Positions 9,160 to 45,378 of a stretch of DNA of 64,000 bases are shown here, piece after piece (position 1 is the stretch's first letter; each line of letters opens with the position of its first letter). Source of the DNA: Candidatus Limivivens intestinipullorum (GTDB lineage: Bacteria; Bacillota; Clostridia; Lachnospirales; Lachnospiraceae); the NCBI GenBank assembly GCA_018711185.1, contig DVIQ01000033.1:1-64000 (forward strand), written 5' to 3'. A program made the translations under genes and the position numbers. Below the pieces are notes generated by a model. It was not told the origin of the DNA. It made no database searches and was given only the letters and a program-made list of their open reading frames with translations.

Positions 9160-9188
9160 GTTACAGCTCTGCTTTGCTGAACTGTAAC
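9160..9188. repeat. 29-bp palindromic MITE-like element
   Basis: GTTACAGCTCTGCTTTGCTGAACTGTAAC; flanks AGGGTACG / AAGATACG (6 of 8 identical). Confidence 0.65.
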
Positions 9189-9205
9189 AAGATACGCTCT
9201 ATATT

Positions 9206-11260
9206 TTACTCGTAGGTGATTACCGTGGTCTCGCCCGCTTTGGCATCCATTCCCGACAGATACCGGATGTTTGAGGCGTTTCCTTCGTCTGTCACCAGGA
9301 ATACCGTGGTCTTAGGATGGCCCGCGGCCTTGATTTTCTCCGGAGTGAAGGAAATCAGACGGTCACCGCGGCGCACCCGGTCGCCGGATTTTACGAACAG
9401 CTCGAAGCCGTCTCCACCCATATCCACCGTGTCAATGCCCACATGGATCAGAAGCTCCATGCCGTTGTCCAGCGTCAGACCGCAGGCATGCCTGCTGTCC
9501 TCCATGACAACGCTGACCGTAGCGTCGGCCGGCGCGTAAACCACGTCGTTGTCCGGTTCAAAGGCAACGCCCTCGCCCATAATCTTCTGGGAAAATACTT
9601 CATCCGGCACTTCCTCAAGGGGAATTACCTTTCCGGTAAGCACAGCCTTCAGTTCACCAGGAGCCGCCAAAGCAGAACCCTCCGCCCCAACGTCCGCTCC
9701 GCTGCCGGACACTGCATCGCCTGCAGCGCTGCCGCCTGCCATACCGCCGGTCATACTGTCGCCCGCCGCGCTGCCGTCTGCCACGCTGCCGCTTGCCGCG
9801 CCGGCTGCTGCCGCAGCCTGCTGGGCTTCTTCACCCACAAGTTCTTCTCTGGAAAGCTTCTTTTTCCCTACAAGAAAGGTCAGCACAAAGGGAACCGCTA
9901 TCGCAACGGCCATGCACAGCAGGAAGATGCCCCAATACTGCGGAAAGATAGAGAGAATGCCCGGAAGTCCGCCTACGCCGATGCTGACGGCCTCCACCCC
10001 AAAGCCTACGGAAACCACTGCCGCTGCTGCGGAACCGATCATGCCGCAGATCAGCGGGAATACATATTTCAGATTTACACCGAACAAGGCCGGTTCCGTA
10101 ACACCCAGGTAACAGGAAATACAAGCCGGAACGTTCACCTGCTGGGCCCGCTCATTCTTTTTCTGAAGCACAGACATAGCAAGAACCGCGGAGCCCTGGG
10201 CGATATTGCTCAGCGCAATCATCGGCCACAGCATCGTGCCGTCAAAGAGGTTTACCAGCTGGCTGTCGATGGCGTTGGTCATATGATGAAGCCCGGTCAT
10301 AACAATGGGCGCGTACAGGAAACCGAATACCGCCGCGAAAATCGTGCGGAAGCTTGAGGTCAGTCCCGCGTAAACCGCGTCGCCGATGGCGTTTCCGATT
10401 CTCCAGCCGATAGGGCCCACCACTGTATGGGCGATGATTACGGCCGGAAGCAGAGAGCAGAATGGCACCACAATCATGCTGATGACTGCCGGGCAGTGCT
10501 TACGGAAGAATTTCTCCAGATATACCAGCACAAAGCCTGCCATAATCGCGGCGATTACCTGTCCCTGATAACCGATCATCTGCACCTTTGCAAAGCCGAA
10601 ATCCCAGACCGGAATCTCCGACGCCGGCGTCGTCGCCACGGAAAAGCCGTTTAAAAGCTGAGGAGAAACCAGCGTCAGGCCAAGGACAATACCAAGAATC
10701 TGGGTTGTTCCCATTTTCTTTGTGATGGACCATACGATTCCCACAGGCAGCAGATGGAACACGGCCTCTCCGATCAGCCAGAGGAAACTGTAAACCCCTG
10801 CCCAGAACTGGGAAATGTCTGCCAGGCTCTGGGTACCATTGTTGAAGAAATTAATTTCACCGATGATGTTGCGAAAACCTAAAATCAAACCGCCGCAGAT
10901 CAGCGCGGGTATAATCGGGGCAAAAATCTCGCCCAGATTGCTCATAATTCGCTGAACCACATTCTGGTTTGTCTTGGCAGCCTCCTTCGCCGCCTCCTTG
11001 CTTACGCCCTCGATGCCCGCGTATGCTGTAAATTCATTATAAAACGTGGACACATCGTTTCCGATAATCACCTGGTACTGGCCAGCCTGGGTGAAGGTTC
11101 CCTTCACGGACCCAAGCTTTTCAATCTCTGCCGTGTCCGCCTTTTTCGGATCTGCCAGAACAAAACGCATCCTGGTCATGCAGTGGGAAACCGCATGAAT
11201 GTTTTCCTTTCCACCGATGAGCCGAAGCAGCTCTTTGACATCCTTGTCATACTTCGCCAT
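9206..11260 (-). CDS. PTS EIIBCA, trehalose-type
   Basis: EIIB SHCMTRMRF, EIIC membrane domain, EIIA LLIHVGIDTV; Ala/Gly/Ser-rich linker before EIIA. Confidence 0.88.
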   Translation of the reverse strand: MAKYDKDVKELLRLIGGKENIHAVSHCMTRMRFVLADPKKADTAEIEKLGSVKGTFTQAGQYQVIIGNDVSTFYNEFTAYAGIEGVSKEAAKEAAKTNQNVVQRIMSNLGEIFAPIIPALICGGLILGFRNIIGEINFFNNGTQSLADISQFWAGVYSFLWLIGEAVFHLLPVGIVWSITKKMGTTQILGIVLGLTLVSPQLLNGFSVATTPASEIPVWDFGFAKVQMIGYQGQVIAAIMAGFVLVYLEKFFRKHCPAVISMIVVPFCSLLPAVIIAHTVVGPIGWRIGNAIGDAVYAGLTSSFRTIFAAVFGFLYAPIVMTGLHHMTNAIDSQLVNLFDGTMLWPMIALSNIAQGSAVLAMSVLQKKNERAQQVNVPACISCYLGVTEPALFGVNLKYVFPLICGMIGSAAAAVVSVGFGVEAVSIGVGGLPGILSIFPQYWGIFLLCMAVAIAVPFVLTFLVGKKKLSREELVGEEAQQAAAAAGAASGSVADGSAAGDSMTGGMAGGSAAGDAVSGSGADVGAEGSALAAPGELKAVLTGKVIPLEEVPDEVFSQKIMGEGVAFEPDNDVVYAPADATVSVVMEDSRHACGLTLDNGMELLIHVGIDTVDMGGDGFELFVKSGDRVRRGDRLISFTPEKIKAAGHPKTTVFLVTDEGNASNIRYLSGMDAKAGETTVITYE

Positions 11261-11308
11261 TTCTCGGTTCCTCCTTTTTCTCTCTTTTCATCACTGTTCG
11301 CATCGAAC

Positions 11309-11320
11309 TTGTTTGAACAA
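11309..11320. promoter_or_regulatory. Candidate TreR operator 1
   Basis: TTGTTTGAACAA palindrome upstream of the PTS gene, similar to the Bacillus tre operator TTGTATATACAA. Confidence 0.55.
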
Positions 11321-11336
11321 ATTTATACTAACGCAC

Positions 11337-11348
11337 TTGTTTAAACAT
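11337..11348. promoter_or_regulatory. Candidate TreR operator 2
   Basis: TTGTTTAAACAT, centre 28 bp from operator 1. Confidence 0.55.
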
Positions 11349-11382
11349 GTCAACCTGATTTTCATATTTTGTCACACTTGCG

Positions 11383-11445
11383 GTAACAGTTCAGCCCAGG
11401 TCTGCGCACATGCTGCGCAGACCGTAAGAATGTGATTCAGGCAAC
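11383..11445 (-). repeat. Module-C copy of the dispersed intergenic repeat, flanked by 8-bp direct repeats
   Basis: GTAACAGTTCAGCCCAGGTCTGCGCACATGCTGCGCAGACCGTAAGAATGTGATTCAGG...; CACTTGCG at 11375-11382 and 11446-11453. Confidence 0.8.
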
Positions 11446-11566
11446 CACTTGCGCTTTTTTCCCCGCCGCTTTATAATATCAGCGTATCACAACGGAGGAA
11501 ACGAATCGTAACGATTCCGCAAGGCCAAACTGCAGCAAAAGATCCGCCCCTCCAAAGGAGTGTTTC

Positions 11567-12298
11567 ATGCCCAAGACGAAATATGACCGCATTTACCGGG
11601 ATTTAAAAACAAAAATCGAAGCCGGCGACTATGAATATCAGGAGCTGCTTCCCTCGGAGAGCAGCCTGATTAATGAATACGACTGTTCCAGAAACACCGT
11701 GCGGCGCGCCATCGCCGCCCTTGTGCGGGACGGCTATGTGCAGACCATGCAGGGAAAAGGCGTGCGCAATATTTACCGGCCTCTCGCCCAGGCCTCTTTT
11801 ACCCTGGGCACCATCGAATCCTTCCGGGAATCCGCGGCCCGGAACCACCAGGAAAGCTCCACAAAAGTGGTCTGCTTCGCGGAACTGACTGCGGACGCAA
11901 AGATCGCCCGGAAAACGGGATTCGCGGCCGGTTCTGAATTATATTATTTACAAAGAGTCCATTATTTAGATGGGAAAGCGCTGATTTTAAATCACAATTA
12001 TTTTTTAAAGTCCGCGGTTCCCGGTCTGACAAAGGAAATCGCGGAGAACTCCATCTACGCATATCTTGAGCATACCCTGCATATGACTATTGTAAACAGC
12101 ATCAGGATTATGACTGTGGAAAAAATTACGGAAATTGATGAGAAATATCTGGAAGTGAATCAAAATGAATACAACTGTCTGGCTGTAGTCAGCAGCCACA
12201 CGTACAACAGCGACGGGGTCATGTTTGAGTTTACCCAGTCCCGGCACCGTCCCGATTATTTTCGCTTTCAGGACAATGCTGTCCGCCGGCGGTTCTGA
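11567..12298 (+). CDS. treR: GntR/UTRA family trehalose operon regulator
   Basis: N-terminal wHTH LLPSESSLINEYDCSRNTVRRAI and UTRA domain; divergent from PTS/treC. Confidence 0.88.
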   Translation: MPKTKYDRIYRDLKTKIEAGDYEYQELLPSESSLINEYDCSRNTVRRAIAALVRDGYVQTMQGKGVRNIYRPLAQASFTLGTIESFRESAARNHQESSTKVVCFAELTADAKIARKTGFAAGSELYYLQRVHYLDGKALILNHNYFLKSAVPGLTKEIAENSIYAYLEHTLHMTIVNSIRIMTVEKITEIDEKYLEVNQNEYNCLAVVSSHTYNSDGVMFEFTQSRHRPDYFRFQDNAVRRRF

Positions 12299-12957
12299 TG
12301 GGGTGCCCCCTGACCGCCGCTGTGGGCGGACTCTGGCAGCGGACCGGAAACTATTGCCTGGCTCTGCGCCGCCTTGGCGTGACACCGGTGGTCACGCTGG
12401 ATACGAGCCTGGCCGCCTCCTGCGATCTTCTCATTCTGCCCGGAGGCAATGATCCGGACCCGTCCCTGTTCGGGGAACCCTGGTGCGGCTCCCGGATCGT
12501 AGAGCGGGCCCTGGATCTGCGGCAGCTTGCTCTGCTTACCGCCTTTGTCCGGACAAGGAAGCCAGTCCTTGGCATATGCAAGGGTATGCAGCTTATCAAC
12601 ATCTGGTTCGGAGGCTCCGTCATTCAGGATCTGTCCACCCGTTCTCTCCATCAGTATTCCGGACAGGATCAGGTACACGGCTCCGCCGCGGCAGCCGGTT
12701 CCTGGCTTGCCGCTCTGTACGGAACGGCGTTTTTTGTGAACAGCGCCCATCACCAGGGCATCGGCCTCCCCGGACGGGAGCTTCAGATCATACAAAAAGC
12801 TCCGGACGGTGTGTCCGAAGCTCTGGTTCATGAAAAGCTTCCGATTTTCGGTGTGCAGTGGCATCCGGAACGGATGGCCTTCTCCCTGCGCCGAAGCGAT
12901 ACCCCAGACGGAAAGCGGGTCCTGGAATACCTGCTGCGGCTGGCCGCACAGCGGTAA
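12298..12957 (+). CDS. Peptidase C26 / gamma-glutamyl-GABA hydrolase-like class I glutamine amidotransferase
   Basis: LILPGGNDPDP, GICKGMQLIN (nucleophile C), FGVQWHPE; ATGA overlap with treR. Confidence 0.85.
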   Translation: MGCPLTAAVGGLWQRTGNYCLALRRLGVTPVVTLDTSLAASCDLLILPGGNDPDPSLFGEPWCGSRIVERALDLRQLALLTAFVRTRKPVLGICKGMQLINIWFGGSVIQDLSTRSLHQYSGQDQVHGSAAAAGSWLAALYGTAFFVNSAHHQGIGLPGRELQIIQKAPDGVSEALVHEKLPIFGVQWHPERMAFSLRRSDTPDGKRVLEYLLRLAAQR

Positions 12958-13007
12958 TCGGCGGCAGCTGTGTCGATACCCGCATGCGTCCCGGCTGCCG
13001 GGCCGCC

Positions 13008-13445
13008 TTACTGATAACTGCGGAAGAAATCCTTCAGATTCGTCAGGGCCGTCACCAGTACCCTGGTCTCATTCTCCGAAAGTCCCGCCAGGGTCGCCTG
13101 GATCATCTCCCGGTGAAACCGCTCGTGATGGTCATAGGCCCTGCGCCCTTTTCCCGTCAGAGAAATCAGCACCACCCGCCGGTCCTTTTCGCTCCGGACA
13201 CGGGTGATATATCCTTTTTTTACCAGGTTGTTGACGGCAATCGTCAGAGTCCCCACCGTAATGTTCAGGGATTTCGCCACCGATGACATATTCCGCGCCT
13301 CGTCCCGTCCCACTGCCGCGATAATGTGCATATCATTGTTGGAAATATCTTTAAATTCCTCTGTGATAATGGCTTTTCCCTCTATCGTCATAATATCGTT
13401 AAAGAGATTCACCAGAACATCGTCAAGTGTTTTATACGCTTCCAT
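13008..13445 (-). CDS. MarR family regulator, FabT-like
   Basis: 145 aa winged helix; RSEKDRRVVLISLTGKG typical of MarR. Confidence 0.85.
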   Translation of the reverse strand: MEAYKTLDDVLVNLFNDIMTIEGKAIITEEFKDISNNDMHIIAAVGRDEARNMSSVAKSLNITVGTLTIAVNNLVKKGYITRVRSEKDRRVVLISLTGKGRRAYDHHERFHREMIQATLAGLSENETRVLVTALTNLKDFFRSYQ

Positions 13446-13501
13446 CCTGCCGCCTCCTTTTCGCAGGGAATGCAGTGCATAATTGTTAATTAATCAAATA
13501 T

Positions 13502-13514
13502 TTTGAATATCAAA
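13502..13514. promoter_or_regulatory. Candidate MarR/FabT-type operator
   Basis: TTTGA-ATA-TCAAA inverted repeat upstream of the MarR gene. Confidence 0.45.
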
Positions 13515-13571
13515 CTATCTGTATTATACACCACTTTCCCCAGGCTGACAACAAGAAAATGAAGGAAACGG

Positions 13572-15326
13572 TTACTGACGATAATAGCTTAAAAAGTCTC
13601 CCAGCTTGCCCATGGCCTCCTTCAAAATCTCGATTCTGGGCAGGTACACCACCCGGAAGTGGTCAGGCTGCTTCCAGTTAAATCCGCTTCCCTGCACAAC
13701 CAGAAGCTTTTTCTCCTTCAGCAGATCCAGGGCAAATTTTTCATCATTTACAATATTGAACTTTTTCAGATCCAGCTTCGGGAAGATGTAAAAAGCCGCC
13801 TTGGGTTTTACGGCGCTGACTCCCGGAATGTCGTTGAGGGCCTTATAGATGTACTCGCGCTGCTCGTAAATCCGTCCGCCCGGCACAATGTAGCTGTTTA
13901 CGCTCTGATAGCCCCAAAGAGCCGTCTGCACAATGGACTGGGCGGGCACATTGGAACAGAGGCGCATATTGGAGAGCATGTTCAGCCCTTCCATGTAGTC
14001 CTTCGCCATTTCCAGCCGGCCGCTTAAAATCATCCAGCCGATGCGGAAGCCCGCGATCATGTGAGATTTCGAGAGGCCGCTGAAAGTCACACAGAACAGA
14101 TCCGGGGCCAGGGACGCGATGGAAATATGCTTCTCTCCATCCATCACAAGCCGGTCGTAAATCTCATCTGAGAAAATAATAAGCTGATGTTCTCTGGCCA
14201 CCTGCACGATCTGCTCCAGTACCTCCTTCGGGTACAGCGCGCCTGTGGGATTGTTGGGGTTGATAATCACGATGGCCTTTGTCCGGTCCGTCACCTTTTT
14301 CCGGATGTCGTCGATATCCGGATACCAGTCAGCCTGCTCGTCGCAGACGTAATGCACGGCCTTGCCTCCCGCCAGGGTGGCGCAGGCAGTCCAGAGAGGA
14401 TAATCCGGAGATGGAATCAGAACCTCGTCCCCATCGTCCAGAAGGGCGGACATGGAAATATTAATCAGTTCGCTGACGCCGTTTCCCGTATAGATGTTCT
14501 CGATGGAAACATTCGGCAGGCCTTTTACCTGGGCATACTGCATGATGGCCTTTCTGGCTGAGAAAAGTCCTCTGGCGTTGGAATAGCCCTCGCACTCGGT
14601 AAGCTGCTGGCGCATGTCGTAGATGACCTCGTCCGGCGTCCGGAAACCAAAGGGCGCGGGATTGCCGATATTCAGTTTCAGGATCTGTGTTCCCGCTTCC
14701 TCCATCCGCTCGGCCTCATCCACCACCGGCCCTCTCACGTCATACAATACATTGTTCAGCTTTGATGATTTTTTAAATTCCCGCATTTTTCTTCCTCCCG
14801 AATTTTCTTTATCTGAATCCGATCCCGCTGCGGCCCCTGCCCGGGGAACGGCCGCGCTCTCTGGCTGCCTCGCCGAGGCCGTGCTCCCGGCGCCTGTCTG
14901 TCGCTCCGGCTCGCTCCTGCCAGCCGCCTGCTCCTCCGGCTCGCTCCCCGCTGTCTGTCGCTTCCGCTCACTTCTGCCGGCCGCCTGCTCCTCCGGCTCG
15001 TTCCCGGCGCCTGCCAGCCGTTCCGGCTCGCTTTCGCCGCCTGCCAGCCACTCCGGCGTCACCTGGAGCGTTTTTGCCAGAAAACGGAGAATCTCCTCCC
15101 GCGGAATCGTTTTTCCGCTGACATACTGGCTCATATGGCTCTTTCCAAGCTTCACACCCGCCTGGGATGCCGCCCGGATCACATCCACCTGCTTCATCCC
15201 CTGCCGGTTCAACGCGTCTTTCAATCTGTCTGCAAAGGTCTCCTTAGGCATCGCTTTCCTCCATAAGTTCAATTTTGCTTTGTTTGCTCGCGATAATTGA
15301 ACTTTAATCATACCATCTTGGTTCAA
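13572..15326 (-). CDS. XRE HTH domain fused to class I/II PLP aminotransferase (AlaA-like)
   Basis: N-terminal HTH (KQVDVIRAASQAGVKLGKSHMSQYVSGKTIP), repeat-rich linker, then NPNNPTGALY and SGLSKSHMIAGFRIGWM. Confidence 0.88.
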   Translation of the reverse strand: MNQDGMIKVQLSRANKAKLNLWRKAMPKETFADRLKDALNRQGMKQVDVIRAASQAGVKLGKSHMSQYVSGKTIPREEILRFLAKTLQVTPEWLAGGESEPERLAGAGNEPEEQAAGRSERKRQTAGSEPEEQAAGRSEPERQTGAGSTASARQPESAAVPRAGAAAGSDSDKENSGGRKMREFKKSSKLNNVLYDVRGPVVDEAERMEEAGTQILKLNIGNPAPFGFRTPDEVIYDMRQQLTECEGYSNARGLFSARKAIMQYAQVKGLPNVSIENIYTGNGVSELINISMSALLDDGDEVLIPSPDYPLWTACATLAGGKAVHYVCDEQADWYPDIDDIRKKVTDRTKAIVIINPNNPTGALYPKEVLEQIVQVAREHQLIIFSDEIYDRLVMDGEKHISIASLAPDLFCVTFSGLSKSHMIAGFRIGWMILSGRLEMAKDYMEGLNMLSNMRLCSNVPAQSIVQTALWGYQSVNSYIVPGGRIYEQREYIYKALNDIPGVSAVKPKAAFYIFPKLDLKKFNIVNDEKFALDLLKEKKLLVVQGSGFNWKQPDHFRVVYLPRIEILKEAMGKLGDFLSYYRQ

Positions 15327-15391
15327 CAGGTGAAGTATAGCATAGATTTTTCAAAAGTTCAATATATATTTCTCAAAAAGTTCATTTTCAG

Positions 15392-15470
15392 GCTGCAGTT
15401 CAATCTTACTGAACCGTAGCTGCAAAAATCCATTTGAAATCACCTTCGGCGATGGGATTTTCGCAGCCTG
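15392..15470 (+). repeat. A+B modules of the dispersed intergenic repeat
   Basis: GCTGCAGTTCAATCTTACTGAACCGTAGC-TGCAAAAATCCATTTGAAATCACCTTCGGCGATGGGATTTTCGCA. Confidence 0.7.
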
Positions 15471-15478
15471 AAAAAAAT

Positions 15479-15517
15479 CGGATAGGGGAAGCTCTCCTTC
15501 CCCTATCCGTCTTTTTT
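15479..15517. terminator. Rho-independent terminator
   Basis: CGGATAGGGGAAG/CTTCCCCTATCCG-type stem then TCTTTTTT; A-tract on the other side. Confidence 0.85.
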
Positions 15518-15518
15518 C

Positions 15519-15547
15519 GTAACAGTTCAGCCCTGCTGAACCGTTCC
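15519..15547. repeat. 29-bp palindromic MITE-like element with exact 8-bp TSD
   Basis: GTAACAGTTCAGCCCTGCTGAACCGTTCC flanked by CTTTTTTC (15511-15518, 15548-15555). Confidence 0.75.
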
Positions 15548-15598
15548 CTTTTTTCTTCCGTCTCGTATTGTCAATTCGGACGCACTAGCAGTTCAACG

Positions 15599-18163
15599 TC
15601 AGATCAGTTCCATATCCTTAAACGCTGTTTTCTTCTCAACTGCCTCCGCCACGTAAGCCATCCTGGACAGATCGCCGATGAGAATCGCGCCGGCCAGACG
15701 GCCGTTTAAGAAATAATATTTGGCGTACTGCTTCTTGCCCATGTCTTTGAGTTCCACGGTCTTGTAAACCAGATCCGGATTCTTTCCGTTGTCTCCGGCG
15801 GCATACAGGGCCGTGCCCATGCCGTGGAAGGTAAGTGCCGCAGGTACGGGAACGTACTCGATGGCTTCTCCGGCCGCGTTGGCGCCGGCAACCTTGCCCT
15901 GATCCACCGCTTCCGGCCAGATGGCGTAGTTCATGCCCTCAAACTGAGCGCAGTCGCCGCAGGCGAAAATATCCGGGTCGCTGGTAGCCATATGGCTGTC
16001 TGCCACAACGGCGCGGTCCACCGTAAGCCCTGCCTCCTTTGCCAGCGCGCTGTTTGCCCGAACGCCGCAGGACACAATCACAAGCTCCGCGGGAATCACC
16101 GTGCCGTCCGCCAGACGCACGCCTGAGGCATGGCCGTCGCCTTCAATGGCCTCGATGGTAACGCCGGTCTCGATGCGGATGCCCCGGTCACCTGCAATGG
16201 CCTTCAGCATATCGCCTGCCGTCTGGTCAAGCTGGCGGCCCATCAGCATCGGAGCCAGCTCCAGAACCGTCACGTTCAGCTTGGACTTGCGCAGCTCCCA
16301 GGCCGCTTCCAGTCCCAGCACGCCGCCGCCGATGACTACGGCGTTCTTAACGCTGCCCAGCATAGCCGCGATCTTCTTCGTATCATCCAGACGGCGGATG
16401 GTGGCGACGCCCTCCTTGTCCGCTCCGGAAATGGGCGGAACAAAGCATTCGCTTCCCAGGGCGTAGATCAGCTTCGTATACTGAAGCTTTGTGCCGTCTT
16501 CCAGGGATACCTCTTTTGCCTTGGGATCGATGGCCGTGACCTTTCTTCCCAGCACCTGGACAATGCTGTTCTCCTCGTACCACTCCTCCTCGTGCATGGC
16601 AATCTGATCTGCCGTCAGGCCAGCCATCATGGATTTGGTAAGCATTGGGCGGTTATATCCACTGTAAGGCTCCTCGGACACCAGAACGATGGAACCGGTC
16701 TTATCCCGCTCCCGGATGGCCGCCGCGGCGTTCACGCCTGCCGCTCCGTTTCCGAGGATCAGGTAAAGGTTCTTCGTGTCGTTGGAGTAGCTCGTCTCAT
16801 CGTCCTCCACCGGAACAAAGTTCTCTTTGCCGACTCCGCAGACCGGACAGGTTTCCAGAGAGGCATCAAAGATCTCGCCGCAGACAAGACATTTCACCAG
16901 TTTTCTGGCGCCCTTGCCGGATTTCTTCTTGGGGTTCTCCTTATCCTGAAGAATACAGCCGAAATTGTAACCGTACTCATAAGCGTCCATAAGCTGAACC
17001 TCGTCCGGACGGAAGCGAACCTTAAAGCCGTCCACCACGTTCATCTTCAGCTGCTTTAAGCGCTCCAGGATATGGGGCACGCCCTCGCCGCTCCAGCCGT
17101 AGCTTCCGAAAGCGCTGGCAAGCTTTCCGCCGTGGGTTCCCGCGAAAATAGAGGTGGTCAGGTCCCAGATGGGCTTCAAGGCCTCTCCCACAATCGTCGG
17201 CGTACCGAACAGGATGCCGTCCGCGAAGCCCAGCTCCTCCAGAACCTTCGCGGAATCCGCGGTTACCATATCGTAGGAGCGGACATCAATGTCGCCGCTG
17301 TCGGCAATACCGCGGCCAATCTGCTCCGCCAGGGATTTCGTGTAGCCGTAGGCGCTGACATAGGGGATAATAACCGTCTTTTTCTTGTTCGGATTTACCA
17401 CGGTACACCATTCTTCATAGGTATTCAGCATAAAGGCGATGTCCGTATCCAGAACCGGACCGTGCCCCGGACAGATCATAGAGAGATCCAGGGCGCGCAC
17501 CCGTTCCAGAGCCTTCAGCATGTACGGCTTAAAGGGGCCGATAATACAGTCGAAATAGTATTTCGTGGCGCGCATATAGTCATCATGGTTCTTCACACTG
17601 CTCACCAGCACATCGTGGAAACCATAATGGGAACCGAAGGAATCACAGGTAACCAGAACCTGCTCCTCCTCGATGTAGGTATACATGGTATCCGGCCAGT
17701 GAAGATTGGGCACCACCATAAACCGAAGCGTGCGGTCGCCGATCCGCATGGTCTCCTCATCCTGTACGGCAATGCTGTAGAAGTCACGATTCACGATCTC
17801 TTTCAGGAAGCCGATGGCGCAGCCGGTGGCAATAATCTTGATATTCGGATTCAGCTCCAGCAAACGCGCGATGCTCCCGGCGTGATCCGGCTCCGTATGG
17901 CTTACCACCAGGTAATCGATATCCGCAATGTCCGTCAGTTCCTGGACTTTTTCCAGATACTCGTCAAAAAACACTTCCTTAGCCGTCTCAAAGAGAACCG
18001 TCTTGCCTCCTGTCTTCATCAGATAGGAGTTATAGGAAGTGCCGAACTCTGTATACATAATAATGTCGAATACGCGGAGCGTATCGTCCACGATTCCCAC
18101 CCAGTAAAAATTGTCACGCAGTTTTAAAGTTTTCATTCGTTCTCCTTTCCCGTCCTTTCGCAA
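15599..18163 (-). CDS. Flavodiiron protein fused to rubredoxin and NADH:rubredoxin oxidoreductase (class F FDP-like)
   Basis: 854 aa; HTEPDHAGS diiron site, flavodoxin domain, CLVCGEIFDASLETCPVCG rubredoxin, GNGAAGVNAAAAIRERD FAD domain. Confidence 0.9.
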   Translation of the reverse strand: MRKDGKGERMKTLKLRDNFYWVGIVDDTLRVFDIIMYTEFGTSYNSYLMKTGGKTVLFETAKEVFFDEYLEKVQELTDIADIDYLVVSHTEPDHAGSIARLLELNPNIKIIATGCAIGFLKEIVNRDFYSIAVQDEETMRIGDRTLRFMVVPNLHWPDTMYTYIEEEQVLVTCDSFGSHYGFHDVLVSSVKNHDDYMRATKYYFDCIIGPFKPYMLKALERVRALDLSMICPGHGPVLDTDIAFMLNTYEEWCTVVNPNKKKTVIIPYVSAYGYTKSLAEQIGRGIADSGDIDVRSYDMVTADSAKVLEELGFADGILFGTPTIVGEALKPIWDLTTSIFAGTHGGKLASAFGSYGWSGEGVPHILERLKQLKMNVVDGFKVRFRPDEVQLMDAYEYGYNFGCILQDKENPKKKSGKGARKLVKCLVCGEIFDASLETCPVCGVGKENFVPVEDDETSYSNDTKNLYLILGNGAAGVNAAAAIRERDKTGSIVLVSEEPYSGYNRPMLTKSMMAGLTADQIAMHEEEWYEENSIVQVLGRKVTAIDPKAKEVSLEDGTKLQYTKLIYALGSECFVPPISGADKEGVATIRRLDDTKKIAAMLGSVKNAVVIGGGVLGLEAAWELRKSKLNVTVLELAPMLMGRQLDQTAGDMLKAIAGDRGIRIETGVTIEAIEGDGHASGVRLADGTVIPAELVIVSCGVRANSALAKEAGLTVDRAVVADSHMATSDPDIFACGDCAQFEGMNYAIWPEAVDQGKVAGANAAGEAIEYVPVPAALTFHGMGTALYAAGDNGKNPDLVYKTVELKDMGKKQYAKYYFLNGRLAGAILIGDLSRMAYVAEAVEKKTAFKDMELI

Positions 18164-18217
18164 ACCGGCGCGCGAAAAGCGCTTCCGAGCGGCTGCTGAC
18201 AGCAGCCGCCCGGTGTT

Positions 18218-18382
18218 TTAGTCCTCAGCCGGCTCAAACTCGTCCTTTCCAACGCCGCAGACAGGGCATACCCAGTCATCCGGAAGATCCTCAAAAGCGG
18301 TTCCGGGAGCGATTCCGTTATCCGGATCTCCAACCTCAGGATCATATTCATAGCCGCAGGGTACGCATACATATTTTTTCAT
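18218..18382 (-). CDS. Rubredoxin
   Basis: 54 aa [54 protein letters not shown]. Confidence 0.95.
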
Positions 18383-18573
18383 CTTATTCACCTTATTCCT
18401 TTCAAATTTGATATAATAGTAACAGTCCATGTCCGCGCGATACAGCGCAGACTGACGGTTCCTCAAACGGTTGTTAAACAATTACTAGTATTTACCGATG
18501 TGTCTATTATATTCCATTTTCCGGGAAAAATCTGTTGCAATCGCAACACTTTTCCCATTTGCAGGAGGTTTTT

Positions 18574-19263: not shown

Positions 19264-19273
19264 GGCCGGGCGC

Positions 19274-19807: not shown

Positions 19808-19836
19808 CTCTTACCTGTCCCGCAGCGGATTTTCCA

Positions 19837-19906
19837 TTACAGTTCAGCCTTTGAACTGTAACTGCAAAAATCCATTTGAAATCGCCTTCGGCGATGGGAT
19901 TTTCCC
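19837..19906 (+). repeat. A+B modules of the dispersed intergenic repeat
   Basis: TTACAGTTCAGCCTTTGAACTGTAAC + TGCAAAAATCCATTTGAAATCGCCTTCGGCGATGGGATTTT. Confidence 0.7.
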
Positions 19907-20096
19907 GCCGCGCTTCCCATTTTTATTTACCTTATGCCGCATGTCCGGGATTCATGCCTTGCCCCGCCCAAAGTTCCGCGCCAAAGACGGAAATGCGCAA
20001 AAAAACAGACAGGAAACGCTTTTCAAAATTCCTGTCTGCCTATATCCGCGCCGCGTCCGCCTATGGGGAGGCATCTTCCTTTGCTGTTTCCTCCTC

Positions 20097-27540: not shown

Positions 27541-27594
27541 CTGTTGTCTGCATCTGCCGCGAACGACGGTAAGCAGTAACGATACTGTATGAAA

Positions 27595-27623
27595 GTAACG
27601 GTTCCGCAAAGCTGAACTGTTAC
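27595..27623. repeat. 29-bp palindromic MITE-like element with exact 8-bp TSD
   Basis: GTAACGGTTCCGCAAAGCTGAACTGTTAC flanked by GTATGAAA (27587-27594, 27624-27631). Confidence 0.85.
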
Positions 27624-27700
27624 GTATGAAAAATACGCGGCCCGCAGGCGAACAGGCATCGTGCGGCTGCTTGGAAAAGGAGAAGGTTGGAGCGGAAATC

Positions 27701-30256: not shown

Positions 30257-30292
30257 AAAATTGTCCTCCCAAATCCGCTTCTGCTTTGCTTC

Positions 30293-30517: not shown

Positions 30518-30545
30518 AAATCCTCCCTTCCGCGCCCGGCGACGG

Positions 30546-33134: not shown

Positions 33135-33255
33135 TTCTTTCTCCTTTCTTTTCCGCAAAGTTACGGTTCACGGAACGGAGGCCGTGAATCGCAGCTTTGC
33201 GCAGTCTCATTTCTCCTGTTCACGGAACATGCCTGCCGCTGTGAGGAAGAACTCC

Positions 33256-33284
33256 GTAACAGTTCGGCAAGGCTGAACTGTTGC
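33256..33284. repeat. 29-bp palindromic MITE-like element with exact 8-bp TSD
   Basis: GTAACAGTTCGGCAAGGCTGAACTGTTGC flanked by AGAACTCC (33248-33255, 33285-33292). Confidence 0.85.
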
Positions 33285-33393
33285 AGAACTCCCGTACACT
33301 ATACCCCCATTATGTGAACAAATTATTAACACACTCGAATATTTATATCAAACATTCCCCGCAAAGCCGCGCAGACCTGGGCTGAACTGCAAC

Positions 33394-33430
33394 AAAAAAC
33401 CGGCCCCTATGTGACAGGGACCGGTTTTTT
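33394..33430. terminator. Bidirectional terminator downstream of the WG-repeat gene
   Basis: AAAAAACCGG-cCCCT...AGGGa-CCGGTTTTTT. Confidence 0.85.
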
Positions 33431-33501
33431 GTATCGGTTCAGCATTCATTCTATTTGTCTTTCCAGAGCTTTCCGGCCTCTTCTGTGCTGCTGGCCCGCT
33501 T

Positions 33502-36191: not shown

Positions 36192-36212
36192 AATCTTTTC
36201 TCCTTCCTTTTC

Positions 36213-36347
36213 GCAACAGTTCAGCCCTGCTGAACCGTTACATGCAAAATCCATTTAAAATCGCCTGCGGCGATGGGATTTTGCACTCCTGAATCACATT
36301 CTTACGGTCCGCGCGGCATGTGCGCGGACCTGAGCTGAACTGCTGCG
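36213..36347 (+). repeat. Full-length composite intergenic repeat (A-B-C, about 135 bp)
   Basis: GCAACAGTTCAGCCCTGCTGAACCGTTAC-ATGCAAAATCCATTTAAAATCGCCTGCGGCGATGGGATTTTGCA-...-GAGCTGAACTGCTGCG. Confidence 0.85.
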
Positions 36348-36412
36348 ATAATTTCTGCGGTCTTCTTATTAATTATACTATAATTGCTTCCTTATAGCAA
36401 TTCATATCTTTT

Positions 36413-36454
36413 AGAAAAGCCGGTCAGGCGCTTTCGCGCCTTCCCGGCTTTTCT
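36413..36454. terminator. Terminator downstream of the ABC exporter pair
   Basis: AGAAAAGCCGGtcAGGCGC...GCGCCTtcCCGGCTTTTCT. Confidence 0.8.
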
Positions 36455-36494
36455 TCACATTCTTCTGTTTTCGCTCTCACCGTCAAAGACGCTG

Positions 36495-38312: not shown

Positions 38313-38314
38313 GG

Positions 38315-40096
38315 TCAGTTGCCTCCTTTCCCGGCAGTAAGCCTGCTGTGTTCTTCAAGCATCTCATAGGGGATCTCTCCGTACTGGTTGCGGAAGGTTG
38401 CCGCGTAGTAGCCATTCTGGGCCAGCAGGGATTCATGGGTGCCCCGCTCAATAATGCGCCCGTGATCCAGAACCAGGATCATATCCGCGTCTTTGATGGA
38501 AGAAATCCGGTACGCGATGATAAACACCGTACAGTCTTTTTCTTTCTGTATATTTTTCAGCTGCGTCTGTATGTAGCTTTCTGTCTCCATATCCACCGCG
38601 GAGGTAGTGTCATCCAGGATCAGGATCGCCGGATCCTTTAAGAGAGCTCTGGCAAGGGAAATTCGCTGCTTCTGTCCGCCCGATAACCCTACGCCCCGCT
38701 CGCCCACGATGGTGTCATAACCCTCGGGCATGGCGTTGATAAAGTGGTTGGCGTCCGCCATAATGGCCGCGTGCTTCACATCGGCGAAGCTGCAGTTGGG
38801 ACGGCCGTAGGCGATGTTTCCCTCAATGGTATCGGAGAACAGGAATACATCCTGCATCGCCATACCGATGTTGTCCCTGAGATTGTACAAATCGTGCTTC
38901 CGGACATCCACGCCGTCCACCAGGACTTCTCCTGATGTGGTGTCATAGAAACGGCAGAGCAGGTTCATCAGGGTGGATTTTCCGGAACCGGTGGAGCCGA
39001 TGACGCCTACGGTCTGCCCCGCTTTGACCTTGAAATTGATGTCCATTACAATGTCTTCGTCATCCGTGCGGTAAGACACATCACGGAATTCCACGTCTCC
39101 GCGGATTTTCCGGTGAATGCCTCCGACCCGGGGCGTCTGAACCTGGGGCTCCTCACGGTAGGTATTGTAAATCTTTTCCACGGAGGTGGCGAAATTCAGC
39201 GTATCATTTACCCACCATCCGGCCATACGAAGGGGGGTATTCAGCATCCAGAGGTAGCCGTTGACCTTTACCAGATCTCCCATGGAGATCTCTCCCTGGA
39301 TCACCAGCCAGCCGCCGTACAGCATCAGAATGATCGTCAGGGCATAGGAAAGAATTTCAAAAATCGGCACATATTTCATCCAGATTCCGGAAGCGTTGAC
39401 CTGGGCGTCCCGGAACTTGTCGTTCTCTTTGTTGAACTTCTGGATTTCGTAATCCTCCTTGGCGAAAGCCTTTACTACCCGGTTTCCGCTGATGTTTTCC
39501 TGAACAAAGGCATTCAGGGACGAAAAGCAGTTTCGATTGCGCTGGAAGGCCGGACGCACCTTCTTGGACTGAAAATACGTGGTCAGAGCCGTAAAAGGCA
39601 GCACAATCAGCATCAGCAGCGCCAGCCTGGTATTTACCGTAAATACCATCAGCAAAGCGAAAATAAACAGCAGCACATTCTGATATACCGCGTAGATTAC
39701 ATAGGATACAAAATACCGGACCGCGTCCATATCTCCCGTCTGGCGGCTCATCAGGTCTCCAGTTCGCTTCTTATTATAGAAACTGAAGTCCTCCTGCAGA
39801 AGCTTCCGGTACACCGCGTCGCGCATGTCATAGAGTACGCCCTGGGACGCCGTTTCGAATACAACCTGGTACACGAAACGAAGCACGCCGTTTAACAGGG
39901 TTACGCCCAGCAGACACGCGATCAGGATACCCAGCAGGTCATAGTTTCCGGCCTGGATTACATCGTCCACAATCACACCGGAGATGTAGGGATTGACGAT
40001 GGACAGGGCCGCAATGATGGTCGTCAGAATCAACCCCAGAATCATCAGGTTTCGGTACTTCTTCAGAAACGAGAAGAACCATTTCATAGGTGTCAT
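38315..40096 (-). CDS. ABC transporter, ATP-binding/permease (exporter half)
   Basis: GSTGSGKSTLMNL, LSGGQKQRISLARALL; pairs with 36495-38312. Confidence 0.92.
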   Translation of the reverse strand: MTPMKWFFSFLKKYRNLMILGLILTTIIAALSIVNPYISGVIVDDVIQAGNYDLLGILIACLLGVTLLNGVLRFVYQVVFETASQGVLYDMRDAVYRKLLQEDFSFYNKKRTGDLMSRQTGDMDAVRYFVSYVIYAVYQNVLLFIFALLMVFTVNTRLALLMLIVLPFTALTTYFQSKKVRPAFQRNRNCFSSLNAFVQENISGNRVVKAFAKEDYEIQKFNKENDKFRDAQVNASGIWMKYVPIFEILSYALTIILMLYGGWLVIQGEISMGDLVKVNGYLWMLNTPLRMAGWWVNDTLNFATSVEKIYNTYREEPQVQTPRVGGIHRKIRGDVEFRDVSYRTDDEDIVMDINFKVKAGQTVGVIGSTGSGKSTLMNLLCRFYDTTSGEVLVDGVDVRKHDLYNLRDNIGMAMQDVFLFSDTIEGNIAYGRPNCSFADVKHAAIMADANHFINAMPEGYDTIVGERGVGLSGGQKQRISLARALLKDPAILILDDTTSAVDMETESYIQTQLKNIQKEKDCTVFIIAYRISSIKDADMILVLDHGRIIERGTHESLLAQNGYYAATFRNQYGEIPYEMLEEHSRLTAGKGGN

Positions 40097-40291
40097 AATA
40101 ACGTCCTCCCTTGTGTTAGCCAACATATTACGCCGCAAACAGCAGGTGCTTGCGGCTACTGTGAAGAGTAACAACAATTTACCACACCGGGGAAAAAAGA
40201 AAATGGAATATCTTGCCCCAAAGATGTATTTTTTTGGGTTTTGCAGTTTACTTTTTTGCCGGCAGCATATAAAATAAAATTAGAAATCGGC

Positions 40292-40320
40292 AGAACAGTT
40301 CCGCGCGGCTGAACTGTTAT
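40292..40320. repeat. 29-bp palindromic MITE-like element (diverged)
   Basis: AGAACAGTTCCGCGCGGCTGAACTGTTAT. Confidence 0.6.
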
Positions 40321-40379
40321 AAAATGTCGAACAGCGGAGCGGTTACTGATTTCATGATAACAGGAAGGACTTGCAGTAT

Positions 40380-41276
40380 ATGTGCGACACGAGGAATGCT
40401 TTGATTGAAGAACTGAATCCTACATTTCTTTTTACCTGGAAAGGAACCAGGGACGGCAGCGGCGAGCGCTATCACAGCCATGACTACGCTGAGTTTTCTT
40501 TTGTGCTCTCCGGCGCCGGCAGATACCGTATCGATGACAAGATTTACGAAATAGCGGAAGGCGACCTTCTCATTCTGAATCCGGGAACCAGGCACCAGGT
40601 ACTGGCCTCGGATCCGAAGGAGACGCCCTGTACGGAATTCTTTGTGGCCTTTACAGACATACAGCTTCGGGATTTCCCGAAAAATGTCCTGCCCGTTCCC
40701 CAGGCAGGCCCCATTCTTCACACCACCGGAGACCTGCGGCAGAAGCTTTTTAAGATCTGTTCCTCCATGGAAGCGGAAAGCACCGTATACCGCCAGGGGA
40801 AATACTACATGCTCCAGTCCTATCTCATCCAGATGATTCTGCTGGTGATCCGGGAGCAGTACGAGCCGGAGGAGAACCACGCTCTGGGCTATGCCTTTGA
40901 GTCTGTAAACAAAAAGTACATCGTGGAGCGGATCATCACCTTTTTTGAGGATCACTACGCCCAGAAAGTCTCCCTGGATCAGATCGCGGAGAATATGTAT
41001 CTGAGTCCCTTTTATATCTCGAAAATCTTCAAAAGCGAGACAGGAGACACTCCCATCCGTTATCTGATCAACATTCGTCTGGAAAAAGCAAGGGATATTC
41101 TGGAAAAAGATACCGACAGCAGCATCAAAGAGGTGGCTTTAAGCGTCGGGTACGACGACGCCTACCATTTCAGCAAGCTCTTTAAAAAGAAATACGGGGT
41201 TTCCCCTTCCGAAGTAAAAAAAGGGAACCGTTCAACACAGGTCTGCGCACATGCTGCGCAGACCGTAAGAACGTGA
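40380..41276 (+). CDS. AraC family regulator with cupin domain; C-terminus formed by repeat
   Basis: Cupin HSHDYAEFSFVLSGAGRY; HTH DQIAENMYLSPFYISKIFKSETGDTPIRYLINIRLEKAR; last about 16 aa from module C. Confidence 0.88.
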   Translation: MCDTRNALIEELNPTFLFTWKGTRDGSGERYHSHDYAEFSFVLSGAGRYRIDDKIYEIAEGDLLILNPGTRHQVLASDPKETPCTEFFVAFTDIQLRDFPKNVLPVPQAGPILHTTGDLRQKLFKICSSMEAESTVYRQGKYYMLQSYLIQMILLVIREQYEPEENHALGYAFESVNKKYIVERIITFFEDHYAQKVSLDQIAENMYLSPFYISKIFKSETGDTPIRYLINIRLEKARDILEKDTDSSIKEVALSVGYDDAYHFSKLFKKKYGVSPSEVKKGNRSTQVCAHAAQTVRT

Positions 41277-41287
41277 TTCAGGAGTGC
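41227..41287 (-). repeat. Module-C copy of the dispersed intergenic repeat
   Basis: CAGGTCTGCGCACATGCTGCGCAGACCGTAAGAACGTGATTCAGGAGTGC; nearly identical to 11383-11441. Confidence 0.85.
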
Positions 41288-41300
41288 GAAAAGAAGCGCA

Positions 41301-41334
41301 AGCCGGCGAACCGTTTAGGTTGGCCGGCTTTTGT
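41301..41334. terminator. Terminator between AraC and MerR genes
   Basis: AGCCGGCgAACC...GGTTgGCCGGCT then TTTGTT. Confidence 0.7.
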
Positions 41335-42163
41335 TCACGGGAATCTGGATTTCCGTTACAAACTTGGAAGTATCGTTGGTGAGTCCGTAGTCGATCATTG
41401 TAATCTCCCGGGAAAAGCCTGCCACGGCATAGCCTTCCCGGCGGATATATTCCATCAGCCGTCCATAGTACCCCGGTGCCTGCTCATGTCTGCCCTGAAA
41501 GCGGACAGCCGCGCAGGTCTGGGCAGGCAGAACCGTGGTGTCCCCCTGGAAGGTATCCTCCTCGTCCAGGAGCAGGAACACCACATCGTAGGAATGGTAT
41601 TCCCCGCGCCGCAGACGCTCTCCGGAGACGCCCACGCCGATTTTCCCGAGAAAAATGGACGTGCCCTCCTCGGACTCCTCAAGAAGCCGGATCGAATATT
41701 CCAGTTCCTGATAATCCGAAGGGCCCAAAGACTGGCGGATGGACGCGATTCTCCGGGGCGGCGTATCCACCAGACAGATCTCATCCAGACGGGAGGACAG
41801 CGCGTCCTGAATCTGGGACAGACGGTTGCGGATCTTCCGGCGGATCATTTTGAGCCGCTGCTCCCTTTTCTCAATCTCCGCCTCCTGGTTTTGCAGAAGC
41901 TCCTGGATTTTCCCGATATCCCGGTTCTGAAGGAACCCGGCGATCCGGTCCAGGGGCATATCCAGCTCCCGCAGATAGCGGATGGTATTCAGACACTCAA
42001 ACTGGGCGGCTCCGTAATACCGGTATCCCGTATCCGAGTCCGTATATTCCGGACAGACCAGGCCTGTCCGGTCGTAGTATCGAAGGGTGCTGATGCTGAT
42101 ATGAAAAAGCCTGGACACCTCTCCGATTCGAAACAATTCTTTTCTCTCCATTTTTCCCGACAC
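41315..42163 (-). CDS. MerR family regulator with effector-binding domain
   Basis: LFRIGEVSRLFHISISTLRYYDRTGLVCPEYTDSDTGYRYY. Confidence 0.9.
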   Translation of the reverse strand: MSGKMERKELFRIGEVSRLFHISISTLRYYDRTGLVCPEYTDSDTGYRYYGAAQFECLNTIRYLRELDMPLDRIAGFLQNRDIGKIQELLQNQEAEIEKREQRLKMIRRKIRNRLSQIQDALSSRLDEICLVDTPPRRIASIRQSLGPSDYQELEYSIRLLEESEEGTSIFLGKIGVGVSGERLRRGEYHSYDVVFLLLDEEDTFQGDTTVLPAQTCAAVRFQGRHEQAPGYYGRLMEYIRREGYAVAGFSREITMIDYGLTNDTSKFVTEIQIPVNKSRPT

Positions 42164-42174
42164 CTTTTTTGGCG

Positions 42175-43536
42175 TTACGCAGGCCGTTTCCGGAGCCCGC
42201 TTTTGGTTTTCCGCCCTTCATACAGCACGTAAAACAGCGTATAGCATGCCATAATTCCCGATACCGTAGGGGCAATCCGTCCAAGCATCCCCAGGTCATC
42301 GGCAAAATGGCTGGAAAAATACCACACCAGGGGAATTCGGAAAACCAGGGCCCCCGCCGTGCAGCTTACCATAGTCCAGAGGGTCTTTTCCCTGCCGTTT
42401 AAGTAGCCGTTCAGGCAGAAAACCAGGGCGACCATCAGGTAATCATAGCTGCAGGAGCGGAAGAAGGGAATGCCCGCCTCAATCACACCAGCGTCGCTGG
42501 TAAAAGCGCCGATCATGGACCGGGGACTGATCTGGGCCCAGCCCCAGAACACAAAGGATACCGCCAGGGCGAAACCCAGGCCATACCACAGGGCTTTCCT
42601 GGCCCGCTCCGGCTTCCCGGCCCCCACGTTCTGGGCCGTCACTGCCGCCAGGGCGCTGGCCATGGACGTGGCGCTGAGCATGGCGAACACATCGTATTTG
42701 CTGCTGATTCCCACCACCGCGGCGGCGTAGACGCCGCACCGGTTCATAACCGCCGTCAGGTACAGGAAGGAAATCCGCACCGCCAGCTCCTGGAAGGAGA
42801 TCGGAATGCCCACGCCGGCCAGCTCCCGGATAATTTCTCCCACAGGCCGGAAGCTGGGAAGCCGGAAGTCAAACAGGAAATCCTTCTTTTTCAGGTAAAC
42901 CACCGAGATTCCCATGCTCACCGCCTGGGAAATCACCGTGGCCAGGGCCGTGCCGCTGACATCCATCCGGAAAAATTTCACAAACACAAAATCCAGCGCG
43001 ATGTTGATCACGCAGGCAATTCCCACGAAGGCCATGGGCCGGGTGGAATCCCCGTATCCCCGCAGTATAGCGCTGATGGCGTTGTAGCCGCAGATGAAAA
43101 AATTTCCCAGGGAACAGATGGTGACATACTGCGCCGTCAGGGAAAAGGCCTCCTCCGGCGTATCCAGGGCGCGAAGCAGGGGCCGCAAAAAGGCCAGCAT
43201 CAGTACCGTAAGGAGAATGGCCGTCCCCGCGAATACCGTCAGCGTCGTTCCGATAGTCTGCTTCACCTTCTCGTAATCCCGCCGTCCCATGTATTTTCCC
43301 ACCAGGATAGTGCCCCCCAAAGTCAGGCCGGTGATCAGGCTTGTAACGATCTGGGTCACCTGGGTTCCGGTGGACACCGCGGCCACGCTCTGGGCGGAGC
43401 AGTACTGCCCCACCACAAACAAATCCACCGCCCCGTACAGAGACTGCAGGATGTTGGCCGCCAGCAGCGGAACCGCGAACCGGAACAGCATCCCCGGCAC
43501 GCTGCCCCTGGTCAGATCATTTTGCTTCATTTTCAA
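42175..43536 (-). CDS. MATE family efflux transporter
   Basis: 453 aa; RFAVPLLAANILQSLYGAVDLFVVGQY, AVTAQNVGAGKPERA. Confidence 0.92.
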   Translation of the reverse strand: MKMKQNDLTRGSVPGMLFRFAVPLLAANILQSLYGAVDLFVVGQYCSAQSVAAVSTGTQVTQIVTSLITGLTLGGTILVGKYMGRRDYEKVKQTIGTTLTVFAGTAILLTVLMLAFLRPLLRALDTPEEAFSLTAQYVTICSLGNFFICGYNAISAILRGYGDSTRPMAFVGIACVINIALDFVFVKFFRMDVSGTALATVISQAVSMGISVVYLKKKDFLFDFRLPSFRPVGEIIRELAGVGIPISFQELAVRISFLYLTAVMNRCGVYAAAVVGISSKYDVFAMLSATSMASALAAVTAQNVGAGKPERARKALWYGLGFALAVSFVFWGWAQISPRSMIGAFTSDAGVIEAGIPFFRSCSYDYLMVALVFCLNGYLNGREKTLWTMVSCTAGALVFRIPLVWYFSSHFADDLGMLGRIAPTVSGIMACYTLFYVLYEGRKTKSGLRKRPA

Positions 43537-43589
43537 ATCCTCCTTGTGGATATTCTTATTTTAGATTAAACCCTGTAATAGTTATAGAG

Positions 43590-44522
43590 TCAAGAAGGAT
43601 CTGAAAAAAAAGCGTAGCCCTGTTTGCTGTTCTTTTTTACCTCGTACATGGCCCGGTCGGCGGCAGCGTACAGCTCTCCATAGGTTTTTCCGTCATCCGG
43701 CGCGATGGCGATGCCGATGCTGCCGGACAGAACCAGCCCCTTTTCAAGGGGCTGAACCTCCGCCATCCTGTCCAGAATCTCCTGGGCGTACTGTGCCGCC
43801 TCCGCTCTTGTGCCCTCCGGCCAGAAGACCACAAACTCGTCGCCGCCGGCCCGCATCGCCACCGCCTGCTCTGTACAAGCCCGCCTCAGCGCCTGACCCG
43901 CCTCCCACAAAAGCCGGTCGCCCTGGGGATGCCCGTAGATGCTGTTGATGGTCCGGAAATTGTCCAAATCCACCATCAGGAAAATTCCCGTGGACCTGGC
44001 CGCCAAAAGCCCTTCGATCACAACCTCGCCGGCCTTATTGTACAGTCCCGTCAAAACGTCCATCCGGGCCTGCCTGCGCAGCCTTCCGCTGATCCGGTAC
44101 TGCTCTGTTATATCCGTCAGGAGTCCTCCCACCAGGGTTCTCTTTTTCTGTGTCAGAACCGCTATGCGGCAATCATACCAGCAAAGGCTTCCGCCCCTCT
44201 CTGGTATACGAAGCCTGCACTGTCTTTGGGAAATTTTTCTCTCCTTCATGGACCTCACGGTGCGCGCGAAAAGTTCCCTGTCCCTGGGGACCGCCGGGAA
44301 GCTGCGGTATCCTTCCTTTAAAAAACGCCGTATCCTCCGCATCCTTCCGCTGCCGTCCTCAAATAGCAGCGTGTCTGTAGTTGTATCATAAAGAAAAGCG
44401 GCCGCGCCCTCACACCGCGCGAAGATATTGCACCACTGCTCCCCGACCCTCCGATCCCCAAACAGGGGCCCGGCTTTGTGGCGCTTTCTCCGTTTCACTG
44501 CCTCCCTCATTCTTTTTGACAT
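43590..44522 (-). CDS. PAS-like plus GGDEF diguanylate cyclase
   Basis: DVLTGLYNK, MVDLDNFRTINSIYGHPQGD, MRAGGDEFVVFW (intact active site; no RxxD at the I-site position). Confidence 0.9.
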   Translation of the reverse strand: MSKRMREAVKRRKRHKAGPLFGDRRVGEQWCNIFARCEGAAAFLYDTTTDTLLFEDGSGRMRRIRRFLKEGYRSFPAVPRDRELFARTVRSMKERKISQRQCRLRIPERGGSLCWYDCRIAVLTQKKRTLVGGLLTDITEQYRISGRLRRQARMDVLTGLYNKAGEVVIEGLLAARSTGIFLMVDLDNFRTINSIYGHPQGDRLLWEAGQALRRACTEQAVAMRAGGDEFVVFWPEGTRAEAAQYAQEILDRMAEVQPLEKGLVLSGSIGIAIAPDDGKTYGELYAAADRAMYEVKKNSKQGYAFFSDPS

Positions 44523-44664
44523 CCTTTCTGTTCATTGCCGGCCACGCCCGGGCCGGCAGCTTCTGTTTCCCTTCGCCGTAAGCATTCCGCTATCTAATGT
44601 GTACATTATATAATCTATACATCAGTTATGTAAAGAATCTTTTTTGGGTATGATGTTTTTGAAC

Positions 44665-44796
44665 GTAACAATTCAGCCCTGCTGAACCGTACATGCAAAA
44701 TCCATTTAAAATCGCCTGCTGCGATGGGATTTTGCACTCCCGGGTCACGTTCTCACGGCCCGCACAGCATGTGCGCGACCTGGGCTGAACGGTTAC
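44665..44796 (+). repeat. Full-length composite intergenic repeat (A-B-C, 132 bp) with exact 8-bp TSD
   Basis: GTAACAATTCAGCCC...GGGCTGAACGGTTAC flanked by TTTTGAAC (44657-44664, 44797-44804). Confidence 0.88.
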
Positions 44797-44836
44797 TTTT
44801 GAACTCCCAAAGCGGCGTCAAAATTTTACTTAAAGA

Positions 44837-45064
44837 ATGGATTACCGAATGATCAAATTAAGAGTCCTTGAAATTTTGAAAGAGCAGAATCACACGAAGT
44901 ACTGGCTCTACACAAAAATGAATCTGAGCTACCAAAATTTTAACAGGCTGGTGAATAACGAGACGCGGTCCATCCGATATGAAAATATCGAAAAGCTCTG
45001 CCGTATCCTGAACTGTTCTCCGGATCAGCTTTTCGAGATCACTTCAGACGAGGAAGCATCCTGA
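44837..45064 (+). CDS. XRE family HTH regulator (Cro/CI-type, 75 aa)
   Basis: MIKLRVLEILKEQNHTKYWLYTKMNLSYQNFNRLVNNETRSIRYENIEKLCRILNCSPDQLFE. Confidence 0.88.
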   Translation: MDYRMIKLRVLEILKEQNHTKYWLYTKMNLSYQNFNRLVNNETRSIRYENIEKLCRILNCSPDQLFEITSDEEAS

Positions 45065-45274
45065 AATACTTGTTCCGGCCCCCGCCGGTCCGCGCCGTAT
45101 CGCTGTTTGGAATATACAGCCTGAGGATTCTGCGAAAGTACGGCAAATGAGCAGCCATTTCTGGCTGCTCGTAAGAGGGAATTTGTATGAAAAAGTTTGA
45201 AATGTATTAGGTTTATCACCTTACGTTTATAAGTATAAACAAGAAATGTGAACATTTTTTGTTTTCCCTGTGAA

Positions 45275-45329
45275 AATCTCGTGTTTTTATAGTATAATGG
45301 TAACACGTTACGCTGAAAAACACGAGATT
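45275..45329. promoter_or_regulatory. 14-bp perfect inverted repeat bracketing a TATAAT box
   Basis: AATCTCGTGTTTTT - 27 nt including TATAAT - AAAAACACGAGATT. Confidence 0.6.
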
Positions 45330-45349
45330 ATTTTTATTTGGCGCGAAAG

Positions 45350-45378
45350 GCAACGGTTCAGCAGAGCTGAACGGTTGC
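45350..45378. repeat. 29-bp palindromic MITE-like element
   Basis: GCAACGGTTCAGCAGAGCTGAACGGTTGC; flanks CGCGAAAG / CACGAAAG (7 of 8 identical). Confidence 0.8.

Follow-up and report, generated by a model that had tools for sequence, protein, structure and literature searches.

How did six 29-bp palindromes come to lie between the genes of a single contig, and can units this short be mobile? In the window, i.e., the 64,000-nucleotide stretch of Candidatus Limivivens intestinipullorum DNA analyzed here, the initial annotation had read them as the products of transposition of fused-end elements with a link to IS66, and this reading is supported by our analyses. We conclude that the palindromes are most probably the shortest representatives of a non-autonomous MITE family of Lachnospiraceae, moved by a single-ORF, ISBst12-like transposase of the IS66 family.

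All six palindromes are intergenic, and their previously annotated positions, length and architecture were correct (Table 1). The shared arms hold as a layout, but both consensus arms are exact in none of the window copies, with position 6 varying most. The three perfect and two decayed 8-bp flanking repeats listed earlier were likewise recovered, and the remaining copy has flanks of about 5/8. With up to three mismatches allowed, the arm pattern gave four matches in the window compared with 0 expected (100 shuffles); this threshold excludes the more decayed copies, at 9160, 40292 and 45350. All six annotated copies are present, but two more, at 36213 and 44665, had been overlooked, being non-solo. 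The element at 15519 is directly adjoined by a terminator-like 22-bp inverted repeat (15470-15518). Elsewhere, the window contains a group II intron fragment on the minus strand (1-45, Rfam RF02001), cut by the window edge, and a GAY-codon run (Asp-rich repeat) at 6340-6513 in the overlapping ORF pair 6250-7359, possibly coding for an acidic repeat protein.

Table 1. Palindromes and related MITEs in the window.
Feature	Position	Strand	Remarks
Solo 29-bp element, decayed	9160..9188	.	flanks AGGGTACG / AAGATACG, 6/8
Solo 29-bp element	15519..15547	.	8-bp duplication CTTTTTTC, 15511-15518 and 15548-15555, 8/8
Solo 29-bp element	27595..27623	.	8-bp duplication GTATGAAA, 27587-27594 and 27624-27631, 8/8
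Solo 29-bp element	33256..33284	.	8-bp duplication AGAACTCC, 33248-33255 and 33285-33292, 8/8
Solo 29-bp element, decayed	40292..40320	.	both arms without outermost bases; flanks about 5/8
Solo 29-bp element	45350..45378	.	flanks CGCGAAAG / CACGAAAG, 7/8
134-bp MITE	36213..36346	+	left 29 bp = palindrome; then hairpins ATGCAAAATCC..GGATTTTGCA and GGTCCGCGCGGC..GCGCGGACC; right end GCTGAACTGCTGC; target duplication lost
132-bp MITE, same kind as the 36213 element	44665..44796	+	perfect 8-bp duplication TTTTGAAC, 44657-44664 and 44797-44804
Long MITE, truncated	11383..11441	-	right-end part GTAACAGTTCAGCCCAGGTCTGCGC...
Long MITE, decayed left part	19838..19914	+	palindrome and TGCAAAAATCC module
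Long MITE, decayed left part	15396..15472	+	
Long MITE, truncated and diverged	41223..41291	-	right-end part
Long MITE, right-end fragment	33369..33393	+	GCGCAGACCTGGGCTGAACTGCAAC

The flanks of the palindromes carry the signature of transposition. In 65 solo 29-mers with unique flanks, taken across genomes, the flanks agree in 8/8 positions in 25 copies, in 7/8 in 13 and in 6/8 in six. Exact direct repeats beside these copies have a length of 8 only (25 copies), with none at 4-7 or 9-12 bp, that is, the target duplication has one fixed length, as is usual for MITEs. Flanks matching in at least 7/8 positions amount to 58%, compared with 0.18% in a control in which flanks were paired between different copies. 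The 8-bp repeats thus occur far above chance, and chance-level repeats, named by the initial annotation as an argument against transposition, are not what we observe. Twenty-two copies of a 28-bp version with a 2-nt spacer were found as well, all of them solo and 12 with flanks of at least 6/8. One of these 28-mers (L040:5803-5830, duplication CAAATTGT) sits in repeated sequence, and empty paralogues with a single target copy, a further MITE trait, are present in the same genome (L072 and L179, aligned; L147, BLAST only). Empty sites, the absence of which had also been named as a counterargument, hence exist, in paralogous form and for one 28-bp copy in a genome other than the host's. Orthologous empty sites of host-genome copies were not readable in the two genus-mates compared, because these are only ~74% identical.

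The palindromes have terminal inverted repeats and are devoid of coding capacity, as is typical for MITEs, and they share their ends with considerably longer elements. In the host genome, ~40 of 63 palindrome copies form the left terminus of a 134-136-bp element, and the other 23 were scored as solo, in a census that covers selected stretches of this genome and in which one or two of the solos are possibly unrecognized long copies. The initial annotation had missed the 134-bp MITE to which most of the copies belong. Complete long copies in the host genome mostly have 8-bp duplications, with 8/8 in 17. In other genomes, elements of 32, 42, 80, 88, 105, 136, 165, 174 and 289 bp are delimited by these ends, mostly with a perfect 8-bp duplication, so that MITEs with common ends and this duplication range from 32 to 289 bp. 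In two long MITEs (L003:1082-1110 and L291:492-520), the 29-mer at the end and the neighboring module are in inverted orientation to each other, as if the palindrome had flipped. One locus considered as an IS deletion derivative (L071:2135-2324) was rejected; it is an unrelated 166-bp repeat inside a 28/29-mer. This repeat in the spacer, also found in G002 and G027, represents a small element nested in another.

The initial annotation had proposed to look for the palindrome across the genome and in related strains. The family is indeed spread over the host draft genome (3.77 Mb, 118 contigs), with 67 exact copies of GTAACNGTTCAGCNNNGCTGAACNGTTAC and 0 of the reversed control pattern; the exact sequence is found in 0 of 60 relatives. 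Among the matches listed for the palindrome in public genomes are Lacrimispora, Parablautia, a Fusicatenibacter MAG, an Oribacterium MAG and other Lachnospiraceae. Non-palindromic versions of the end were found in 106 of 299 Lachnospiraceae genomes, with dozens each in several, and the ends recur in many genera of this family. The Oribacterium MAG (G065) carries 42 29-mers with the arm GTAACTGTTCAG, forming in most cases the left terminus of a ~135-bp element that has a GCCTCGGGCGTGGCGC module. No exact 29-mer was present in 2.9 million viral contigs, and an Rfam scan of these elements gave no matching family.

How small can a member of this family be and still move? A 42-bp element in the genome G102 is present in 11 copies that have one junction in common, and 10/11 also have a base change in common. 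Their flanks are 8/8 in seven and 7/8 in two, and the perfect duplications each lie at a different site. Independent repeated deletion to one junction is unlikely; the 42-bp class was hence amplified as a unit, i.e., very short units do amplify. For the 28-29-bp double ends, we see about an even chance that they are transposition substrates themselves. Two adjoining 14-bp ends without any interior would then suffice for an IS66-type transposase to pair and move them. Moreover, a 29-mer landing beside other DNA could directly provide it with a new end, and this would account for longer MITEs in several genera that start with a complete 29-mer.

Alternatively, most solo 29-mers might be remnants of 134-bp MITEs that inserted and then lost their interior by slippage or recombination, in analogy to solo LTRs, and a transposition of their own would not be needed. 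This is a serious contender, if somewhat short of an even chance. The loss would take place between 13-bp direct repeats, namely the inner arm of the left palindrome, GCTGAACCGTTAC, and the right end, GCTGAACTGTTAC. Collapse of this repeat would yield exactly the two commonest solo types of the host genome: the commonest, A-CCT-G, is identical to the long MITE's left end, and A-CCT-A, the other product expected from the single repeat mismatch, also occurs as a solo, with no CCT-spacer long copy having this form. Likewise, in G071 a 243-bp element (L103:7243-7485) has a palindromic left part, GTAACAGTTCAGCCAGGCAGAAATG, from which a similar deletion could give rise to the variant 29-mers of this genome. 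In the same genome, however, three solos, each at its own site and with a perfect duplication, have one variant arm in common, for which the copying of one 29-mer is the simpler explanation. None of the 22 28-mers is attached to a known long module, and the amplification of the 42-bp form as a unit demonstrates that such sizes move, both of which argue against loss of an interior as the general route. A further hint, the predominance of one spacer type in 8/14 solos compared with 3/14 long copies in G063, is not significant (p = 0.12) and was hence rejected as proof of solo lineages in this genome.

Our search for a transposase with matching ends covered the IS66 family. The motif GT[AT]ACN[AG]TTCA was found at the ends of 15/19 single-ORF IS66 loci, in contrast to 0/19 with a reversed control and 0/15 classic IS66 loci. 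The ends of the single-ORF elements and those of the MITEs are alike in 11-12 of 13 positions. The IS66 ends differ in a T at position 6, against A or G in most MITEs, and in A or C after CAG; the palindrome of the Oribacterium MAG carries the IS version of the end. One such element (L275) is intact, spans 2358 bp, has GTTACTGTTCA ends and an 8/8 duplication, GCCGGAAT, and encodes a 558-aa PF03050 protein that scores over the Pfam but under the NCBIfam cut-off for IS66. Another (L254/L266), with the ends GTAACTGTTCAGAACCCC and GTATCTGTTCAGAACCCC, encodes a 487-aa IS66 transposase over both IS66 cut-offs. IS66 transposons of one subgroup thus have ends nearly identical to those of the MITEs and the same 8-bp duplication, and a complete lack of transposases with matching ends, a third counterargument raised earlier, does not apply. 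The previously suggested IS66-type driver is supported at the level of the family but not for tnpABC, since the matching group is single-ORF and ISBst12-like. The classic IS66 elements of these genomes have GTAAGCGTCAAAT or GTAAACGGTAGAT as their ends, together with 8-bp duplications, and were rejected as the source; no matching ends occur at any of the 15 loci, and the host relic C72 also ends in GTAAGCGTCAAAT. Another candidate for an autonomous copy, L020:2700-4237, spans ordinary genes only and was rejected.

The host draft genome (94.7% complete) yielded IS66 remnants only, the larger one ending in GTAAGCGTCAAAT, and no intact transposase whose ends match; several MITE-rich genomes gave no IS66 match at all. 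MITEs mobilized in trans often outlive their partner transposase. Judged by their sequence, the window elements would be derivatives of the ISBst12 group of IS66, an assignment that is well supported. Mobilization in trans by an IS66-type transposase we can only infer, because the host draft genome holds no matching enzyme. All family members have in common a terminal 13-14-bp inverted repeat, GTAACNGTTCAGC(C), and an 8-bp target duplication. The 28-29-bp class, with its ends 0-3 nt apart, comprises little beyond two predicted transposase-binding ends back to back. In the mechanism we propose, the single-ORF transposase, with its own ends GT[AT]ACT[GA]TTCA[GC], would recognize the MITE ends and insert the element into a target cut with an 8-bp stagger. 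For the 28-29-bp forms, if they do transpose themselves, a circle intermediate would be unlikely, as double-stranded DNA of 28 bp can hardly be closed into a circle.

The missing IS66 partner in the host genome and in several MITE-rich genomes could also mean that the driver is another DDE transposase generating 8-bp duplications, for example, of the IS256, ISL3 or IS1595 type, outside a search that covered IS66 only; the resemblance to ISBst12-like ends would then be convergent. We consider this unlikely in view of the end motif at 15/19 single-ORF IS66 loci compared with 0/19 in the control. Furthermore, GTAA-type ends with 8-bp duplications, as seen at L104, L105 and L248, are an IS66 trait, and L275 combines GTTA-type ends with an 8-bp duplication.

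An IS66 element of the ISBst12 group, ISDge4, which is bounded by GTGACTACTCAGCA and GTAACTGCTCAGCA, has been caught transposing in Deinococcus, with a repeat of 8 bp (PMC12898284). Its end GTAACTGCTCAGCA agrees with GTAACAGTTCAGCC of the 29-mers in 11/14 positions, and the duplication has the same length; in contrast to ISDge4, the 29-mers are without a gene, and they deviate from it at position 6 and in the last bases. Non-autonomy, terminal inverted repeats, a target duplication and many intergenic copies are features in common with bacterial MITEs such as RUP, Correia/NEMIS and QMITE1, and RUP, like the present family, shares its ends with an IS. RUP has 107 bp and two Correia elements have about 107 and 155 bp (PMC2229807), whereas the shortest QMITE1 copies have 39 bp (PMC10969869). 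Neither MITEs nor their connection with IS elements are new, and the reported bacterial examples that we found start from about 39 bp. What sets the present family apart from these is a recurrent 28-29-bp class with essentially no interior, linked to IS66. In the open-access literature, we found neither an IS66-linked class of this kind, consisting of two adjoining ends, nor a paper on the arm sequence in this context.

REP sequences, which are RAYT-linked and GTAG/CGTC tagged, are likewise 20-40-bp intergenic palindromes in many copies, but they have a tetranucleotide head, in contrast to the symmetric GTAAC ends and 8-bp duplications found here, and the elements do not qualify as REPs. That they resemble REPs or terminators in being retained for a host function (RNA hairpin, protein binding) and spread by a route other than DDE transposition is highly improbable: an intergenic position in the window, a perfect hairpin potential and a length of 29 bp within the REP range of 20-40 bp (PMC3733652) would fit, but the 8-bp duplications at the exact ends, the empty paralogous sites, the same ends bounding elements of many other sizes and the absent GTAG/CGTC head do not.

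The MITE family described here explains many intergenic palindromes of Lachnospiraceae that could otherwise be mistaken for terminators or REPs. Its natural size series, from 28 to about 290 bp, is useful for testing end requirements. Should the 28-29-bp forms themselves transpose, they would define how small a transposon can be and rank with the smallest known units of mobile DNA, and they would place a constraint on the poorly known mechanism of IS66 transposition.
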